DNA of 23,080 nucleotides. Origin: a virus. The number at the start of each line of letters is the position of its first letter. The first letter of the stretch is position 1. The notes under the pieces were generated by a model. That model did no database searches and was not told the origin of the DNA. It worked only from the letters and a program-made list of their open reading frames with translations. Shown piece after piece: positions 10,704-23,080 of the stretch. The stretch is taken from positions 1 to 23,080 of IMG/VR virus record IMGVR_UViG_3300027712_000156. One strand, given 5' to 3'. The translations under genes and the position numbers were made by a program.

Positions 10704-11222
10704 CTATCCTGCTGTTTCTAAAGCCAATCCAATTGCGTTGGTTACTACAAAGAAATCCTCTTGCTCTGTACCGCTAAACTTCAAAGTATAGCCGTTTTGG
10801 TCACCTGCTGCTGCGCCTGTTTTACCTTCCGCAGTTTCAAGATACAAACCTGCCTGCTTACCATACATACGATAAACGCCATCCTTATCCAATGTTACTA
10901 CAACCAATTTATTTTTGGCTAATGTAGTTACAATGTTTCTAGTTGTAGCATCCCTTTTGTTGATAGGCAATTCTACTGATTGCTCATAAAACAAAGTGCC
11001 GTTTTCAATGCTACCAGTTGCAGTTGACATTGCTGTAGCTGTACTTTTTGTAGGTACTTCAAACTTATAAAATTTCTTACCAGTTACCTTTGTAATCCCG
11101 GTCACTGTTCCGCTCGCATCGGCAATAGTAAAGTTTGCAAATTCACCGAAGTAAACTGCATTAATACCGCCAATGGCTTCGCGACAATCTATTGTATATC
11201 CTGCTGTAATTGCACAAGGCAT
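10704..11222 (-). CDS. putative major tail (tube) protein, 172 aa
   Basis: The 172-aa protein begins MPCAITAGYTIDCREAIGGI and NAVYFGEFANF, an opening I recognise in structural proteins of Bacteroidota phages, and is beta-rich with Gly, Thr and Val. Size, beta content and position directly after the major capsid gene and before a strong terminator fit an abundant tube protein. Two cysteines lie near the N-terminus (C3, C13). It is preceded by a GC-rich hairpin (11241-11264) and followed by the terminator at 10649-10682, so it may be produced at high level with the capsid protein. Alternative: a head decoration protein. Confidence 0.6.
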   Translation of the reverse strand: MPCAITAGYTIDCREAIGGINAVYFGEFANFTIADASGTVTGITKVTGKKFYKFEVPTKSTATAMSTATGSIENGTLFYEQSVELPINKRDATTRNIVTTLAKNKLVVVTLDKDGVYRMYGKQAGLYLETAEGKTGAAAGDQNGYTLKFSGTEQEDFFVVTNAIGLALETAG

Positions 11223-13826: not shown

Positions 13827-15875
13827 TTAATTTATTCGTGCTGCCCTGTTTAATCTTGCTATACGCTCCTGGTTATTAGTGACATCTGTTTCTAATACAA
13901 AGGCTCTGCTAGATGCCTGCCCTATGCTATTAATACTTTGTTGGTCTAGAGTAGTTGTTGTAGCTTGTGCTGTTAATGGTGCTACTGCTGCTGATACATT
14001 TGCTCCTGCCGGTAATGATGCACTTCCACTACTTTTGCCTGGTACTTTTGTAGCAAGTATATTTTTTACCGCTCCAAAACCTGTGGCTGCTGCTGCAATA
14101 ACTGCAGGGATAGCTGCTGGGAAACCTAATTTTACACCTGCTGCAATACCTTGATAAGTATTTATTAAAGCATTTGCAACACCAATAGCTTTGGCTGCTA
14201 CTGTATCTTGACCTAATAAATTTGCTACATCGCTTGCAGCTTGTTGATAAGATTTTATTAAAGCTAATTTTCCTGCATTTTCTTTTTCAGTAATACTCAA
14301 TTTAGCCTTACTTGCTTCATCTGTAATAGCTGTTAATTTATCTTGATGTTGTTGCTCTAATAATGCTAATTCTCCATCTGTTAATTCTTTATTTGCTTTT
14401 GCTAAATTAAAAGCGTTATTTTCTGCTGTTATTTTTGCTGCTGCTAGTGCATCAATTTTTAATGCAGCTTCTTCAGGATTATCAGTAGGTAATATTTTAT
14501 TAACCCTTTCAGCTTCTAATAATTTTGCATCGTTTAAAGCCTTTGTATTTGTTAATTCTTTTGCTGCTGCTTTTGCTGCATTTGCATCAATTAAAGCCTG
14601 TTGTTGAATAGCAGTATTTTCATTTATTAATTTTACTCTTGCATCGTATGTTTCCTTACTAATTAATTTTTGATTGAGTAAATCAGCTTCTTTATCTATT
14701 TCTTTTTGATTATTAACAGCAATTTCGTTTTGCTTTTTTGTAAAATCGTCTTTAATACGATTAAGCATTGTTTGCGTAATAAGGTCATCAGTTGCATTTT
14801 GTTGTGCTATTCTATTATTCTCAATTTCTCTTTCTTTTGCTGCTCTATCTTCTGCTGCTTTTTGTTTAGCATCATTATTTTTTTTATTTAATTTAACCGA
14901 TTGCTCTCCTGCTTTTTCTTCTTTTTTGTTTGCTGCCTCATCTGCTTTTGCTTTATCGGCTGCTACCTTTTCAAGCCTTTTTTGTTCTTCAATATCTAAA
15001 ACTTGTTTATCAGTTTTTAACTTTAAAAACTGTTTCATGTCTTCATCATTTAAGCCATTTTGTAGCTTAAATTTTGACCTTAAAGTTTCTAGTTCATTAT
15101 CTGCTTGCTTTTGTTTTAACTTATAAATTACAGCTTCTTGACCGCCTTGCGCTTGTAGTATTCTTATTTGATTGCCAATTGCTGCATTTGTTTTATCTGT
15201 TGCCTCTGCTAATTTCGTTTGAGCCTTTTCTGCTGCACTTGCAGAATTTGCCCATGCCATTATTTTATCAACTAAAAAACCAACTGCTACAACTAGAGCA
15301 CCTACACCAGTTGAAATAATTGCACCCCTTAAAACTTTAAATGAATTGCTAGTAGTTACAACTGCAATCCCAAATAATTTTTGCGCTGAAGTTGCTAATC
15401 CTGTTGCTATTGCAAATCCCTTTTGTACAATACTATTTTGTAACACTTGCGCATACAAAATTTTAAAACTATCAATAGCACCAAATACTCCGCTTATACC
15501 TTGCTGCAATGCCATTGCACTTTGCACTTTTAACAAGGCTTCTTCTACCTTTTTATTTTCCCCACCAAATAAACCCATTGCACCTTGCAAGGCACTAAAT
15601 CCACCTACAGCACCCTGTAATGCTCCGCCTAATGCTACAAACTTTTTATCAGGGTTGAATGTATCAGCTACTGCTTTTGCATCGCCAATAGCATCCTTTA
15701 ATTTAGCTACTTTTTTTGCTGCATCTGCTGCTTCTTTTGAAGTTTCGCCAAACTGCATAGACATATTAACAAGTTCCTGCGTTGCCTCTCTTAAAACTTG
15801 TTTATATGATTTTACCGATTGTTCAGCATTACCGCTGTCGGTTGTTAGTTTAAATGCTATTTCTTGGGTTGCCAT
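13827..15875 (-). CDS. tail tape measure protein
   Basis: The 682-aa protein is long, Ala/Lys/Gln-rich and mostly helical, with a hydrophobic segment near residues 185-205 (ISTGVGALVVAVGFLVDKIM) and an extended coiled-coil region (about 215-540). The C-terminal region has Gly/Ala-rich membrane-like stretches (GVKLGFPAAIPAVIAAAATG) and an ending RAFVLETDVTNNQERIARLN that recurs in Bacteroidota tape measure proteins. It sets tail length: at roughly 1.5 angstroms per residue, a tail near 100 nm. Its ATG overlaps the stop of the upstream 697-aa gene by one base. Unusually, it precedes the head genes, and the chaperone-like gene lies four genes upstream instead of next to it. Confidence 0.88.
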   Translation of the reverse strand: MATQEIAFKLTTDSGNAEQSVKSYKQVLREATQELVNMSMQFGETSKEAADAAKKVAKLKDAIGDAKAVADTFNPDKKFVALGGALQGAVGGFSALQGAMGLFGGENKKVEEALLKVQSAMALQQGISGVFGAIDSFKILYAQVLQNSIVQKGFAIATGLATSAQKLFGIAVVTTSNSFKVLRGAIISTGVGALVVAVGFLVDKIMAWANSASAAEKAQTKLAEATDKTNAAIGNQIRILQAQGGQEAVIYKLKQKQADNELETLRSKFKLQNGLNDEDMKQFLKLKTDKQVLDIEEQKRLEKVAADKAKADEAANKKEEKAGEQSVKLNKKNNDAKQKAAEDRAAKEREIENNRIAQQNATDDLITQTMLNRIKDDFTKKQNEIAVNNQKEIDKEADLLNQKLISKETYDARVKLINENTAIQQQALIDANAAKAAAKELTNTKALNDAKLLEAERVNKILPTDNPEEAALKIDALAAAKITAENNAFNLAKANKELTDGELALLEQQHQDKLTAITDEASKAKLSITEKENAGKLALIKSYQQAASDVANLLGQDTVAAKAIGVANALINTYQGIAAGVKLGFPAAIPAVIAAAATGFGAVKNILATKVPGKSSGSASLPAGANVSAAVAPLTAQATTTTLDQQSINSIGQASSRAFVLETDVTNNQERIARLNRAARIN

Positions 15876-19103: not shown

Positions 19104-19736
19104 TTATTGTACAATGTTTATTTTAATTTTATTTCCAATCATTTCAGCTAAATCTGCCGGTAATTTTTCAAATGCTATCGCTATTGCCTCATCCAAATAA
19201 TGCGTTGCTTTAATACCATATTTTTTAATTAAGAAAATCAATTGTTCTGTTTGCAAATCAATTAAGGACATTTTCTTTTGCTCGTTTTTTTGAATGCCAC
19301 TTTTATTATTTTGTATAGTGCTAATCTTTGCCTTACCACTTTCAATGTACTTTTTTATGGATGCCCTGCCATCTGCACTCATACCATAATTTTTAAATTG
19401 ATAAGGACTATCAGGCGCATTTTTACTACTTGTTACACCATGTACCCCTTTATTTGGATAATCAAAATAGCTAGGCATTAATACATCCATTCCCAATTTA
19501 TCCGTATAAACTTTTAATTCTACTTTACTTGCTAGGTTACCAGATGCTGTAACATTTTTACGCTTCATTACATCTGCCAATATCTTTTGAAAGTCTAACC
19601 CATATTCATAAAATAACTTATTTACACCAGTATAGAAATTACTATCTATTAATTCTACATCATGTAAATTCTCATTAATGCCGTCTATACTTTTTAAGTT
19701 AGCTGCTTGCGCTGCTGCTATGCTTTTGTAAGCCAT
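19104..19736 (-). CDS. HK97 gp10-like head-tail connector, 210 aa
   Basis: The 210-aa protein carries NVTASGNLASKVELKVYTDK and MDVLMPSYFDYPNKGVHGVT, followed by SPYQFKNYGMSADGRASIKK. The pattern 'ASG-L-x-S/K-hydrophobic strand, then strand, then Y-x-x-x-x-x-KG-V-x-G' is that of HK97 gp10-type tail completion/connector proteins. The N-terminal 50 residues are helical. Its start at 19736 lies inside the -1 frame extension of the upstream gene, with a 38-base overlap if that extension is translated. The C-terminus (KYGIKATHYLDEAIAIAFEK) is helical. Confidence 0.6.
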   Translation of the reverse strand: MAYKSIAAAQAANLKSIDGINENLHDVELIDSNFYTGVNKLFYEYGLDFQKILADVMKRKNVTASGNLASKVELKVYTDKLGMDVLMPSYFDYPNKGVHGVTSSKNAPDSPYQFKNYGMSADGRASIKKYIESGKAKISTIQNNKSGIQKNEQKKMSLIDLQTEQLIFLIKKYGIKATHYLDEAIAIAFEKLPADLAEMIGNKIKINIVQ

Positions 19737-19980
19737 CGTTTTCTATTTTCATTTTTAAGTATAGCAAATCATTTAGAAAGTTTATTGCTGTTAAATTCCA
19801 AACCTCATTAACAGATATTCCCTCAAAGTCTGCGACCATTTTGGCATTGTAAACCCACCCAAAAGACTGTTGAAATTCACTAAGGCTTCCGTTACTGTCG
19901 CTCTCTCCATCCCTTTCTTTGTCGCTTCCTGAACTAAATAAGGCTGGATAACCTGCATTAAGATTTGATATTGTAGATAA
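19699..19980 (-). CDS. -1 frame extension of the tail assembly chaperone-like gene
   Basis: Starting at the T9 run the -1 frame is open for 93 codons to TAA at 19699-19701. It reads LSTISNLNAGYPALFSSGSD, then SLSEFQQSFGWVYNAKMVAD, then ISVNEVWNLTAINFLNDLLY and LKMKIEND. The tail pattern G-W, a D, E-V-x-x-L, F-L-x-x-L-x-Y-x-K-x-K-x-E matches the C-terminal domain of tail assembly chaperone-like proteins I know from Bacteroidota phages. Its codons end mostly in A or T like the other genes here, whereas the competing 0 frame over the same bases uses many G-ending codons. It has no start codon of its own at the right place, so it should be made as a fusion of 150 + 93 = 243 residues. Confidence 0.72.
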   Translation of the reverse strand, partial: LSTISNLNAGYPALFSSGSDKERDGESDSNGSLSEFQQSFGWVYNAKMVADFEGISVNEVWNLTAINFLNDLLYLKMKIENDGLQKHSSSASS

Positions 19981-20429
19981 AAAAAAACCGCTGCATGATA
20001 AGCAGCCTCAAAATCTACGTTCTCCATGTCCTTTGCAATATCTTGATGTTCTCGGTGGTAAACCTTACCTCTCCAATTTATTGGCTCTGCAATCGTTGCT
20101 AATAGCTTGTGGATGTCATTGATAATATCCTTTGCAAACGTGATGCCTTCAACGTACTTGGATGCTTTTTGTAGGTCATAATTCAATCGGTAAATTCTGC
20201 CATTTACAAACAGATACTTTGATGGCTTACCATTCATTAATTCCTTTCCAAATATCTCAAACGCTTTTACAATCTTGGCGCACTCTTTATTAAAGGCTTT
20301 CATTTTCATTGCCTCAACTTGTTCAGGTACTTTGCCAGTAAGTACTCCAACCATTTTAATTGACTTGTCAAAGTCAATATCTTCGCCTTTGCTAATAAAA
20401 TATAATTCCTGAAATTGTTTAACCTTCAT
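19791..20429 (-). CDS. tail assembly chaperone-like protein, 0-frame product (212 aa)
   Basis: The first 150 residues (MKVKQFQELYFISKGEDIDF to AAYHAAVFF) match the N-terminal domain of chaperone-like proteins of Bacteroidota phages: a start domain with a VGVLTGKVPEQVEAM helix, a strand YLFVNGRIYRLNYDL, a helix ITFAKDIINDIHKLLATI and the EDMENVDFEAAYHAAVFF helix. At codons 148-151 (GTT TTT TTT TAT) the sequence hits nine T. The 0 frame continues 62 codons to 19791, but this part has atypical codon use, so the biologically meaningful C-terminus is probably the -1 frame. Two products from one start would parallel the G/GT chaperones of siphophages, which help assemble the tail around the tape measure. 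The start codon overlaps dyad element copy 3; TerL lies 30 bases upstream. Confidence 0.7.
   Translation of the reverse strand: MKVKQFQELYFISKGEDIDFDKSIKMVGVLTGKVPEQVEAMKMKAFNKECAKIVKAFEIFGKELMNGKPSKYLFVNGRIYRLNYDLQKASKYVEGITFAKDIINDIHKLLATIAEPINWRGKVYHREHQDIAKDMENVDFEAAYHAAVFFYLQYQILMQVIQPYLVQEATKKGMERATVTEALVNFNSLLGGFTMPKWSQTLREYLLMRFGI
19979..19987 (-). other. T9 slippery run, probable frameshift site
   Basis: Nine consecutive T on the minus strand in the context GTT TTT TTT TAT. The heptamer T TTT TTT fits the X XXY YYZ rule for -1 ribosomal slippage, and a run of nine T is also long enough for polymerase slippage. It is exactly where the N-terminal domain in frame 0 meets the convincing -1 frame domain. 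A homopolymer sequencing error is the alternative. Confidence 0.7.
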
Positions 20430-20459: not shown

Positions 20460-21629
20460 TTACAAGATATAATATTGACCGCTGCCCTTATTTTCTATAA
20501 AGCATTTGTTTGCTAGTGCCAATGCATTGACTGTATCGTCATGGAACCCAGTAGGTGCAGAGTATCTAACCCCTGTAGATGTGAATAAATATTCAAATAT
20601 TTCTAATTCTGTTTTTATCTCATTGTCAGGATAACCCAAATCTCCTTTATGTATTGCCGATGCTAAGCCTTCCATTAATTGCTGCTTACTTGTGCTAGTG
20701 TATTTAAAGCCAGTCATATCATTAAAGTATCTTTGCAAGTCTTCTACAATGGCATCACCCACTCCTGTACTATCAATAAAAATATGTTTGTGTTTAGGGA
20801 TGCGTTTAATTGTTTCCCTTGTTTGCATCCAGTCCTTTTGAAAACGTTCATAGTGCGCCACATTGCCGTTAACATCTAAACCAATGATAACAGTCCAATC
20901 AAAGGACTTCGCCAAATCTATGCCGTAGTATCTAGCCTCTAAATTGCTCAAAGGTTTAACGCATTTAGCTATGTGCTCACTACCAAAAGGGTTGGCAGCA
21001 TTTTCCATTGCATTAGCCATGTACTCCTGCTCAAAAACTGCATGTGGAAGTTGCGCCCTTGCTGCATCTATTTCGGCAGGGTCAATATAAGGGTTATCAT
21101 AAGTAGTAAATTTAAAAGTCTCCCATTCAGGACTACCATTTTTAAGGAATAAACTATAAAAATAATTCTTACCTCTTGGAGTGGATAAAAAGATGGCTTT
21201 GCCTTTGTAGTCTGTTAATGTAGGTCGTATGCTATTCTGCCATCCATCTTGTAAGTTAGGTATGAATGAAGCCTCATCTATAATAGCCAAATGAAATTTT
21301 AAACCTCTAAGCGCATCTAATCGTTCGCCTGTAAAGAAACGAATTACACCGCCTGTTATAAACTGAATAACTAAATCACTTTCATTCTTTTTATATAGGT
21401 TATCAGGAAGTAGTTTGCAAATCTCTTGAAAGAATATTTTGCCTAACTGATAGGTTGGTGTTATATAGGCTACTTGCTGCCTTGACACTCCGCATTCAAT
21501 AGCAATGTTTTGACTGATTAATGATTTACCAAACCTTCTTCCTGCCATCATTACCCTAAACCTTGCCTCACTATCTAAAACCTTTTGTTGTGCAGGATGT
21601 GCTTCATTAAGTTTTATTTTTTGCTTCAT
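20460..21629 (-). CDS. terL: terminase large subunit
   Basis: The 389-aa protein has both terminase domains. ATPase: Walker A A29-G-R-R-F-G-K35-S36, Walker B LAIID118-E119, and the coupling motif LST-P (149-151). Nuclease (RNase H-like): first acid D238 in YYGIDLAKSFDWT, second D286 in IFIDSTGVGD, third D364/D365 in GFHDDTVNALALA. It cuts concatemeric DNA and pumps it into the prohead. The length is typical for the compact TerL proteins of Bacteroidota phages. Its start overlaps the small-subunit gene by 23 bases. The ATG at 21629 is preferred because Walker A then lies about 30 residues in, as usual. Confidence 0.95.
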   Translation of the reverse strand: MKQKIKLNEAHPAQQKVLDSEARFRVMMAGRRFGKSLISQNIAIECGVSRQQVAYITPTYQLGKIFFQEICKLLPDNLYKKNESDLVIQFITGGVIRFFTGERLDALRGLKFHLAIIDEASFIPNLQDGWQNSIRPTLTDYKGKAIFLSTPRGKNYFYSLFLKNGSPEWETFKFTTYDNPYIDPAEIDAARAQLPHAVFEQEYMANAMENAANPFGSEHIAKCVKPLSNLEARYYGIDLAKSFDWTVIIGLDVNGNVAHYERFQKDWMQTRETIKRIPKHKHIFIDSTGVGDAIVEDLQRYFNDMTGFKYTSTSKQQLMEGLASAIHKGDLGYPDNEIKTELEIFEYLFTSTGVRYSAPTGFHDDTVNALALANKCFIENKGSGQYYIL

Positions 21630-22002
21630 AGCTAATAACTATTTCGGTAACTGTTTCGTCAATTATTGTAGTGCTTTCTTTTGGCTTACCATAAACACGG
21701 CTAAGCAATGTATCTAAACTATATAGCGAACCTTTTTTAAGGCTTGTAAACATTGCGTTGGCTACAGTTTTTTCTAATATGGTTGCCTTATCGTTTTGGT
21801 AAATCTCTTTTAATTCATCTACAGTTGAAGCCATTAATATTTGGATGCAATCGTTAATCTCGCTTAACTTGTAACCTTCAATATTTAAATTATTAACCAA
21901 CTTTCTAGGTCTGCCGTTAGGGTTGCCAGTTTCGCCTTTCTGCCATCTGTTAAGCTTACCGCCTGTTGCACCATTGCTTTTGCCATCAACTAAAATAGCC
22001 AT
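21607..22002 (-). CDS. terminase small subunit-like protein (DUF5681-type N-terminus)
   Basis: The 131-aa protein has the basic glycine-rich motif RWQKGETGNPNGRPRKL (residues 19-35), which defines DUF5681-like N-termini that often precede terminase large subunits. A helical region follows (INDCIQILMASTVDELKEIY, then LEKTVANAMFTSLKKG), and the ending SRVYGKPKEST fits the DNA-recognition subunit of a packaging terminase. It starts directly after the methyltransferase stop (TAA-ATG, no gap) and overlaps TerL by 23 bases. Small-subunit function is inferred from motif and position. Confidence 0.8.
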   Translation of the reverse strand: MAILVDGKSNGATGGKLNRWQKGETGNPNGRPRKLVNNLNIEGYKLSEINDCIQILMASTVDELKEIYQNDKATILEKTVANAMFTSLKKGSLYSLDTLLSRVYGKPKESTTIIDETVTEIVISYEAKNKT

Positions 22003-22530
22003 TTACTTTAATTTAAATAATTTAGCATAAGGAGTAGGATAGGATAAGTTTTTAATCATCTCATATCCTTTGCCTTGAAAAAATTCAATCCATTTGTTTT
22101 GAGTCTTAATGTTTATATGCCCCCAATCACCATCCCAATCGGTAACCTCACTTGTGCTGCTATGTAAAATATAAGTAGGCTTAATCGCTTTAAATAGCTT
22201 GTTTAATTCTTTGTCAGTCATGTGTTCGCTTACCTCAATAAAAAGCATTAAATCGGTTGTAATTGGCTTACTGATAATTTTAAGATGTGGCGCATATTCT
22301 TTGATATAGTCAGTATGTGCCTGCCATATTTCGTAAGCACTTGTATTATATCCTGCGTTATGAAATGCAGCCGTATAAACTCCTGTTCCTGCGCCATAAT
22401 CCATTACGCTTTTTATAGGGTAATCTTTTACCTGGTGTGCTGTTACATCTGCAAGGTTAACAAAGTCAGGATTATGGAAACCAATACCCCAACCTAATTC
22501 CTTTGCTAAAAATTCATCATCTTTTATCAT
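22003..22530 (-). CDS. class I SAM-dependent methyltransferase, 175 aa
   Basis: The protein carries motif I D44-Y-G-A-G-T-G50 for S-adenosylmethionine binding, an acidic residue at the end of strand 2 (E67 in SAYEIW) and a strand-4-like LMLFIEVSEHM (95-104). There is no DPPY/NPPY or PC motif, so it is not a typical adenine-N6 or cytosine-C5 DNA methyltransferase; small molecule, glycan or protein methylation is more likely. The C-terminal half has WGHINIKTQNKWIEFFQGKG, seen in phage and environmental methyltransferases beside glycosyltransferases. Its ATG overlaps the 82-aa stop (ATGA), and TerS follows at once. With the glycosyltransferase it could decorate a virion component or glycan. Confidence 0.8.
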   Translation of the reverse strand: MIKDDEFLAKELGWGIGFHNPDFVNLADVTAHQVKDYPIKSVMDYGAGTGVYTAAFHNAGYNTSAYEIWQAHTDYIKEYAPHLKIISKPITTDLMLFIEVSEHMTDKELNKLFKAIKPTYILHSSTSEVTDWDGDWGHINIKTQNKWIEFFQGKGYEMIKNLSYPTPYAKLFKLK

Positions 22531-22775
22531 CTATATATGTTTAATAAAAATTCAATTACGCAAACAGGGCAGCTATTATTATAACGATAGTAAGCATCCT
22601 TTTTGGCTCTGTATGCTTCAAGTAGTTCAGCTTGCACATCGTGATTAAAGTTTACTAATTCGCCTGTCTTAATATAAAAATCATAGTAGTGCCTATGCTT
22701 TGCAAAGGTCGCTGTATGCCTGTCTTCTACTATCGTTGACTTCGGTAAAGTTGTATTTTGTTTTCGCCCACTCAT
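22527..22775 (-). CDS. small CxxC phage protein, 82 aa
   Basis: The 82-aa protein (MSGRKQNTTLPKSTIVEDRH) is rich in His and Tyr in the middle (FAKHRHYYDFYIKTGELVNF) and ends with NNSCPVCVIEFLLNIYR. Short phage proteins with a C-x-x-C-V-x-E ending followed by a Tyr are frequent in Bacteroidota phages and are of unknown role. The frame overlaps the glycosyltransferase gene by 83 bases, unusually long, and no internal ATG exists; either the overlap is real or translation begins at a non-ATG codon further in. The stop overlaps the methyltransferase ATG by 4 bases, which supports it as a gene. Confidence 0.6.
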   Translation of the reverse strand: MSGRKQNTTLPKSTIVEDRHTATFAKHRHYYDFYIKTGELVNFNHDVQAELLEAYRAKKDAYYRYNNSCPVCVIEFLLNIYR

Positions 22776-23080
22776 ATAATGCGTTCCCTAATTGCTCCCT
22801 CAGGTTGGGATTGTTGACTAATAAATTAATATAATTAAACCAATCGCTTTGCTTATTAACCCATAATACTGGCGCATCGTAATCTATATTATATGGTGCT
22901 ACGTTGCTACATATTACCGGCAATCTTTTTGCTGCTGCTTCTAGTATCTTTAAATTAGACTTGCAAGCGTGCCATTCGCTATTCTCTAAAGGGATAACGC
23001 AAATATCTGCATTCTCATACATACTCATGTAGGTTGCAGGTGGCTGTGATGGCATTATTTCAGTAGCACTATAAGCATTT
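22693..23080 (-). CDS. glycosyltransferase (GT4/GT-B-like), C-terminal part
   Basis: The frame is open to the right edge of the window, so this is the C-terminal portion of a larger gene (an internal ATG at 23055 is not taken as the start). The segment YENADICVIPLENSEWHACK followed by SNLKILEAAAKRLPVICSNV is the nucleotide-sugar-binding region of GT-B fold, GT4-type glycosyltransferases; the E in KILEAAA belongs to their conserved acidic motif. It ends with a helix LREQLGNALYEWAKTKYNFT, typical of the family. It transfers a sugar to an unknown acceptor: virion protein, host glycan or DNA. Neighbours are the 82-aa protein and a methyltransferase, then packaging genes. Confidence 0.8.
   Translation of the reverse strand, partial: NAYSATEIMPSQPPATYMSMYENADICVIPLENSEWHACKSNLKILEAAAKRLPVICSNVAPYNIDYDAPVLWVNKQSDWFNYINLLVNNPNLREQLGNALYEWAKTKYNFTEVNDSRRQAYSDLCKA

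Follow-up and report, generated by a model that had tools for sequence, protein, structure and literature searches.

The window, a stretch of 23,080 nucleotides of viral DNA (positions 1 to 23,080 of IMG/VR record IMGVR_UViG_3300027712_000156), carries a gene that we read as a G/GT-type tail assembly chaperone gene with two products, the switch between them being RNA polymerase slippage on a run of nine T (T9). We give this reading as a whole a probability of roughly 0.52. Judged from the comparison of homologous sequences, the T9 frame switch is a real recoding switch and not a sequencing error. The best reading of the gene is that of a putative G/GT-type tail assembly chaperone from a siphophage of a Bacteroidota-type host. 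As for the mechanism, we lean towards polymerase slippage, which is placed modestly ahead of ribosomal -1 frameshifting.

Organization of the gene and its predicted products

All genes near the T9 site lie on the - strand, and the run corresponds to A9 on the + strand. In the 0 frame the sequence at the run is GCG GTT TTT TTT TAT, with T9 beginning at the second base of the Val codon. The relevant features are:

19791-20429, - strand: 0-frame ORF, G-like product of 212 aa (family alignment; AF2 pLDDT 84)
19979-19987, - strand: T9 run, 0-frame reading GTT TTT TTT T (nine T exactly in 300/300 family loci)
19980-19986, - strand: in-phase heptamer T TTT TTT within T9, candidate ribosomal slip site
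19699-19980, - strand: -1 frame C-terminal (T-like) domain, 93 codons plus stop TAA (alignments)
19794-19979, - strand: dual-coded region of 186 b, 62 codons of 0-frame tail over the -1 domain
19702-19736, - strand: last part of the -1 domain, shared with the beginning of the following gene (ATG 19734-19736)
19990-20006, - strand: hairpin GCTGC-TTATCAT-GCAGC, 5 bp, ending two bases 5' of T9
20460-21629, - strand: terminase large subunit (terL), upstream neighbour and anchor for a run-independent search of relatives
13827-15875, - strand: tape-measure-like protein (phrog_9483, E 5e-6)

The terminase large subunit gene lies directly upstream of the 0-frame ORF. The latter stops at 19791-19793 and the -1 frame at the TAA at 19699-19701, so that a -1 shift is predicted to yield a G+T fusion of 150 + 93 = 243 aa. 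An earlier note on this DNA had given the ORF ends, the T9 coordinates and products of 212 and 243 aa, and all of these were recomputed and are correct. Its dual-frame region of about 190 bases was measured as 62 codons (186 b), and the abundance of G-ending codons that it had seen in the 0-frame tail was confirmed (23 of 62 codons, vs 31 of the 147 before the run). When the 0-frame amino acids were fixed and the codons redrawn, 2% of the draws left the -1 frame open across the window's tail.

Other observations concern the surroundings of the gene. A protein with DUF5681 is encoded directly upstream of terL (21607-22002) and could be the small terminase subunit, a role that we infer. Two genes that lie upstream of the terminase genes are, by Pfam matches below threshold, methyltransferase-like (22003-22530) and glycosyltransferase-like (22693-23055). 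The window has a second T9 on the - strand (1709-1717), where no - strand ORF of at least 70 aa is listed.

The T9 run is invariant among the relatives of the window's gene

Relatives were collected without reference to the T run by using the terminase as the IMG/VR query. This search returned 80 loci, among them a near-identical contig (3300010885_006365) and others sharing 68-74% identity. A homologous gene was found after terL in 52 of them and all 52 had a run of nine T, no more and no fewer, in the same phase; the -1 frame was open for 88-95 codons except in two loci cut by contig ends. With further queries, namely the -1 domain, the 0-frame protein and an N-domain of greater distance, the set grew to 300 loci (202 distinct, forming 55 clusters at <80% identity). 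Exact T9 in the same phase was present in 300/300 loci, and wherever both domains were detected the C domain was in the -1 frame. Five N-domain loci were without the run, the contig edge being reached before its position.

The conservation of exact T9 together with a homologous -1 domain (52/52 and 300/300) excludes chance as the origin of the two-frame layout. Nor does codon bias explain the presence of GTT TTT TTT in all 55 clusters, since Phe is encoded elsewhere in the gene by TTT 986 times and by TTC 318 times, and GTT accounts for 41% of Val codons. The C-terminal domain that the earlier note had recognized in the -1 frame is real and one that the relatives share; the pattern that it had named as contrary, homologues conserving only the 0-frame C-terminus, is not the one they display. 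As a separate observation, the base before the GTT codon (19989 and its equivalents) was always G or T, whatever the amino acid (202/202 in this family; log10 P -18.8 over the 55 clusters given codon usage), a feature that the second family described below does not have.

The relatives came from IMG/VR: tblastn of either frame against GenBank phages gave nothing for the window's family. Among genome contigs, the 0-frame alignment used as query led to one Chitinophagaceae MAG contig, which has T9, and a scan with the -1 domain as query found no relatives.

A second family includes gp38 of the cultured phage P12024S

The viral models matched by the predicted structure of the 0-frame product (pLDDT 84) included gp38 of the cultured Nonlabens phage P12024S (E 1.8e-5). 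This gene follows terL and reads CTT TTT TTT TAT, with T9 in the same phase, and its -1 frame runs from T9 into gp39. The two are annotated in GenBank as unrelated hypothetical proteins and belong to PHROG 32199 and 38404, which have no assigned function; positions 23136-23830 of P12024S (NC_018271), covering gp38 and gp39, look like two frames of one recoded gene. Hmmsearch with a single profile missed gp38 of P12024S. Profile comparison joined the two families in both frames (99.5%, E 9e-23, 12% identity; 97.7%, E 1.8e-12, 18% identity). Some of the search peptides included FF, but the codons were degenerate and sites with TTC would have been caught.

The 0-frame search of the second family revealed T9 in 45 and T10 in one of 46 distinct sequences with a placed run (a fragment, L383, whose run could not be placed is left out of the 46). 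The -1-domain search gave T9 or T10 at 66/66 distinct sites, and never fewer. In this family FF is preceded by V, L, I or F, always encoded NTT, and followed by Y or F; across the families these positions vary as V/L/I/F and Y/C/W/F, respectively.

Further window genes match P12024S, the protease, capsid, portal and connector genes among them. A possible tail tube protein encoded after the capsid gene (10704-11222) resembles gp03 and gp09 of P12024S, which may carry two copies of such a protein.

Both frames of the overlap are under selection in the window's clade

The earlier note had called for substitution patterns to be compared per frame among relatives. In the group with 62-codon tails, which is that of the window, the overlap had third-position differences in the -1 frame at 0.51 of the post-overlap rate (bootstrap 0.46-0.57) and wobble differences in the 0 frame at 0.49 of the upstream rate (0.43-0.54), intervals that are not strictly independent given that the sequences within each group are related. 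These lowered differences indicate that both frames of the 186-b overlap are under purifying selection in the window's clade. The groups with tails of 50-68 codons were likewise constrained, with ratios of 0.26-0.78. No constraint on the 0-frame tail was detectable in a 48-codon clade (L004, L007 and others; ratio 1.12), which has kept T9 and the -1 domain. For the window's clade we reject the idea of an unused 0-frame tail, which may still apply to the clade with 48 codons.

The 0-frame tail is predicted to form helices that continue from the body of the protein to about residue 191. The prediction for the -1 domain consists of a low-confidence linker followed by long helices.

The gene is best read as a G/GT-type tail assembly chaperone gene

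Profile searches with 23 family members yielded matches to Phage_TAC_7 (PF10109, P2 E-like) for 8 of them (best E 1.7e-4), to the tail protein PHROG 166 for 15 (best E 1e-4) and to the tail assembly chaperone PHROG 18582 for 6 (best E 1.4e-3). The window protein itself scored 12.9 bits against Phage_TAC_7, which is below the Pfam cut-off of 25 bits. Foldseek against the PDB found no solved structure of similar fold for either domain, and a profile search of PDB sequences gave no match.

The layout has what is expected of a G/GT pair, namely a first ORF with a slippery site in its 3' part and a second domain reachable from there by a -1 change, and this arrangement is conserved in 300/300 loci (202 distinct) as well as in the second family. 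The usual position just before the tape measure gene was not seen. As the earlier note had remarked, the gene is not beside the tape measure gene, three genes lying between them; it had considered this unusual, but P12024S has a similar layout, which is normal in this lineage. Based on the weak Pfam and PHROG matches, the genome setting and the two-product layout, a G/GT-type chaperone is the best reading, in agreement with the chaperone-like function first proposed for the gene.

Proposed mechanism of the frame switch

In the mechanism that we propose, the ordinary message would be translated into G (212 aa), and a fraction of messages or ribosomes would enter the -1 frame at T9 to produce GT (243 aa). 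In the least certain step, RNA polymerase would slip on T9 and generate mRNA with 10 or 7 U. In the window's clade, slippage may be helped by a hairpin in the nascent RNA, immediately 5' of T9. In lambda, the binding partner of gpG is the tape measure protein, and that of the T part of gpGT is the major tail protein (PMC5009743); by analogy with the T domain, the extra 93-aa helical domain of GT probably recruits the tail tube protein.

Four observations make us lean towards the polymerase, the first being the run length. The run never has fewer than nine T in either family, even though T7 or T8 would preserve the heptamer. For a background, 1,518 other ORFs (1.4 Mb) were scanned and the expectation was obtained by synonymous shuffling. 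In-phase T7 heptamers were seen 131 times (230 expected), T8 12 times (55 expected) and T9 once (14 expected). The depletion of T8 and T9 held in every phase and in-phase T7 is common, which is suggestive of an effect of run length. Avoidance of long runs can likewise be produced by replication slippage. Efficient slippage has been described at nine A/T (PMC5009743), and selection against runs acts at about nine in many genomes (PMC1088944).

We have also looked for elements that could stimulate a shift. No convincing downstream RNA structure was found in the 60-100 b 3' of the site (mean z -0.2), and a 3' stem predicted in the alignment (columns 75-106) was discarded for its many broken pairs. 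Within 30 b upstream, 44 of 55 clusters had no match to a Shine-Dalgarno-like element and the remaining 11 had GAGG. Rfam and tRNA scans were empty.

The 5' hairpin is limited to the window's clade and some close relatives, being absent from most clades. Ala/Val codons account for four of its five pairs; the one pair that varies freely is kept in 29 of 30 sequences vs 19.8 expected by shuffling, a difference inflated by relatedness. In a Roseiflexus IS element, slippage is stimulated by an adjacent stem-loop on the 5' side (PMC5009743).

Alternative explanations

The earlier note had left ribosome and polymerase slippage side by side, and both are still candidates; what we add is the lean towards the polymerase. 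A classical -1 ribosomal frameshift on T TTT TTT, in the style of lambda G/GT or P2 E/E', would give the same two products from the same gene, and we regard it as a serious contender at somewhat less than even odds. It is compatible with the heptamer being in phase in every member, every T9 run bringing an in-phase T TTT TTT with it, and with a nearest Pfam family that is the P2 E group; the well-studied phage G/GT switches are, moreover, described as ribosomal (PMC5009743). Less easily accommodated are the lack of any member with T7 or T8, either of which would retain the heptamer, and the frequency of that heptamer in other genes of these phages (131 cases). The missing 3' structure and an SD-like element that is at best GAGG, in 11 of 55 clusters, also count against it, but many phage frameshift sites have no obvious stimulator. 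In E. coli constructs, U_UUU_UUU was much less shift-prone than A_AAA_AAG (PMC5009743). Against the polymerase reading, the outer T may be held by the protein, through the hydrophobic residue encoded NTT before FF, the Y/C/W after it and the Leu that starts the -1 domain. Because the protein constrains V/L/I, Y and the -1 Leu in this way, asking whether the outer T are required gives no clean split between ribosome and polymerase.

The remaining alternatives question the function or the switch itself. A recoded two-product gene that is not a tail chaperone, for example one for another tail or neck assembly protein, would fit the sub-threshold matches of the window protein, the lack of a matching solved structure and the three genes separating it from the tape measure gene. 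We consider it improbable, as several members match Phage_TAC_7, PHROG 166 and PHROG 18582 and a -1 two-product layout among the structural genes of a tailed phage is what tail chaperones typically show. An assembly or sequencing error, or a decaying gene, in what is truly one continuous frame was considered because homopolymers invite errors and the sole near-identical contig (99.93%) may share source material; it is rejected on the conservation of T9 across relatives (300/300 loci out of many metagenomes, the genome of a cultured phage and the Chitinophagaceae MAG contig) and on the selection acting on both frames, which leave it with a negligible probability. No more credible is a separate protein made from an internal start, with no fusion. 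The -1 frame can open with TTG in TGC variants and gp39 of P12024S is annotated as a separate ORF, but most members have TTA at that position and there is no conserved start, and the invariant T9 and the conserved -1 residues right after it would be left unexplained.

Significance and comparison with known systems

Recoded G/GT chaperones are already well known. What is new here is the invariant T9 across a deep, mostly uncultured phage lineage, the selection acting on both frames across 186 b and the argument in favour of polymerase slippage. The literature covered, outside which most subscription papers and preprints fall, contained no earlier report of the T9 site or of realignment in a phage tail chaperone. 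For the lineage as a whole, we give even odds that these Bacteroidota-type tailed phages make G/GT by polymerase slippage on an invariant T9, some with a 5' hairpin, with both overprinted frames selected. The G:GT ratio is crucial for lambda tail assembly (PMC5009743). If our reading is true, this ratio would be set at transcription and not at translation, the same outcome being reached with a different molecular machine. The analysis also suggests a likely function for two unannotated phage protein families, PHROG 32199 and 38404, and indicates that gene callers split this gene in the cultured phage P12024S. The several hundred natural variants allow run length, flanking codons and the 5' hairpin to be compared.

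A close counterpart is gp38/gp39 of P12024S, which, like the window's gene, lies directly after terL, has T9 in the same phase and a -1 frame opening into the gp39 region; it differs in sequence (about 12-18% identity), in its 0-frame tail of only 25 codons and in its annotation as two separate proteins. With lambda gpG/gpGT the window's gene shares two products from one start, a -1 shift, a C-terminal T domain and a place in the structural gene block. The likeness is at the level of layout: lambda shifts near the end of G, whereas the window has a T9 run and a 186-b overlap with both frames selected, and its gene, unlike that of lambda, lies beside terL and three genes from the tape measure gene. 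P2 E/E' (Phage_TAC_7, PF10109) is the nearest Pfam family by the best member match (E 1.7e-4), the window protein being below the cut-off. The -1 shift of P2 likewise takes place at a T-rich site, T TTT TTG, whereas the window's run is pure T9 and its heptamer never ends in G. For the switch itself, the comparison is with the programmed transcriptional realignment sites of Thermus dnaX, Shigella mxiE and spa13, and IS elements. Slippage at the window's T9 is what we infer from its sequence, which resembles these sites in having a homopolymer of about nine with no need for a downstream stimulator (PMC5009743, PMC1088944) and, as in one IS case, a 5' stem-loop.
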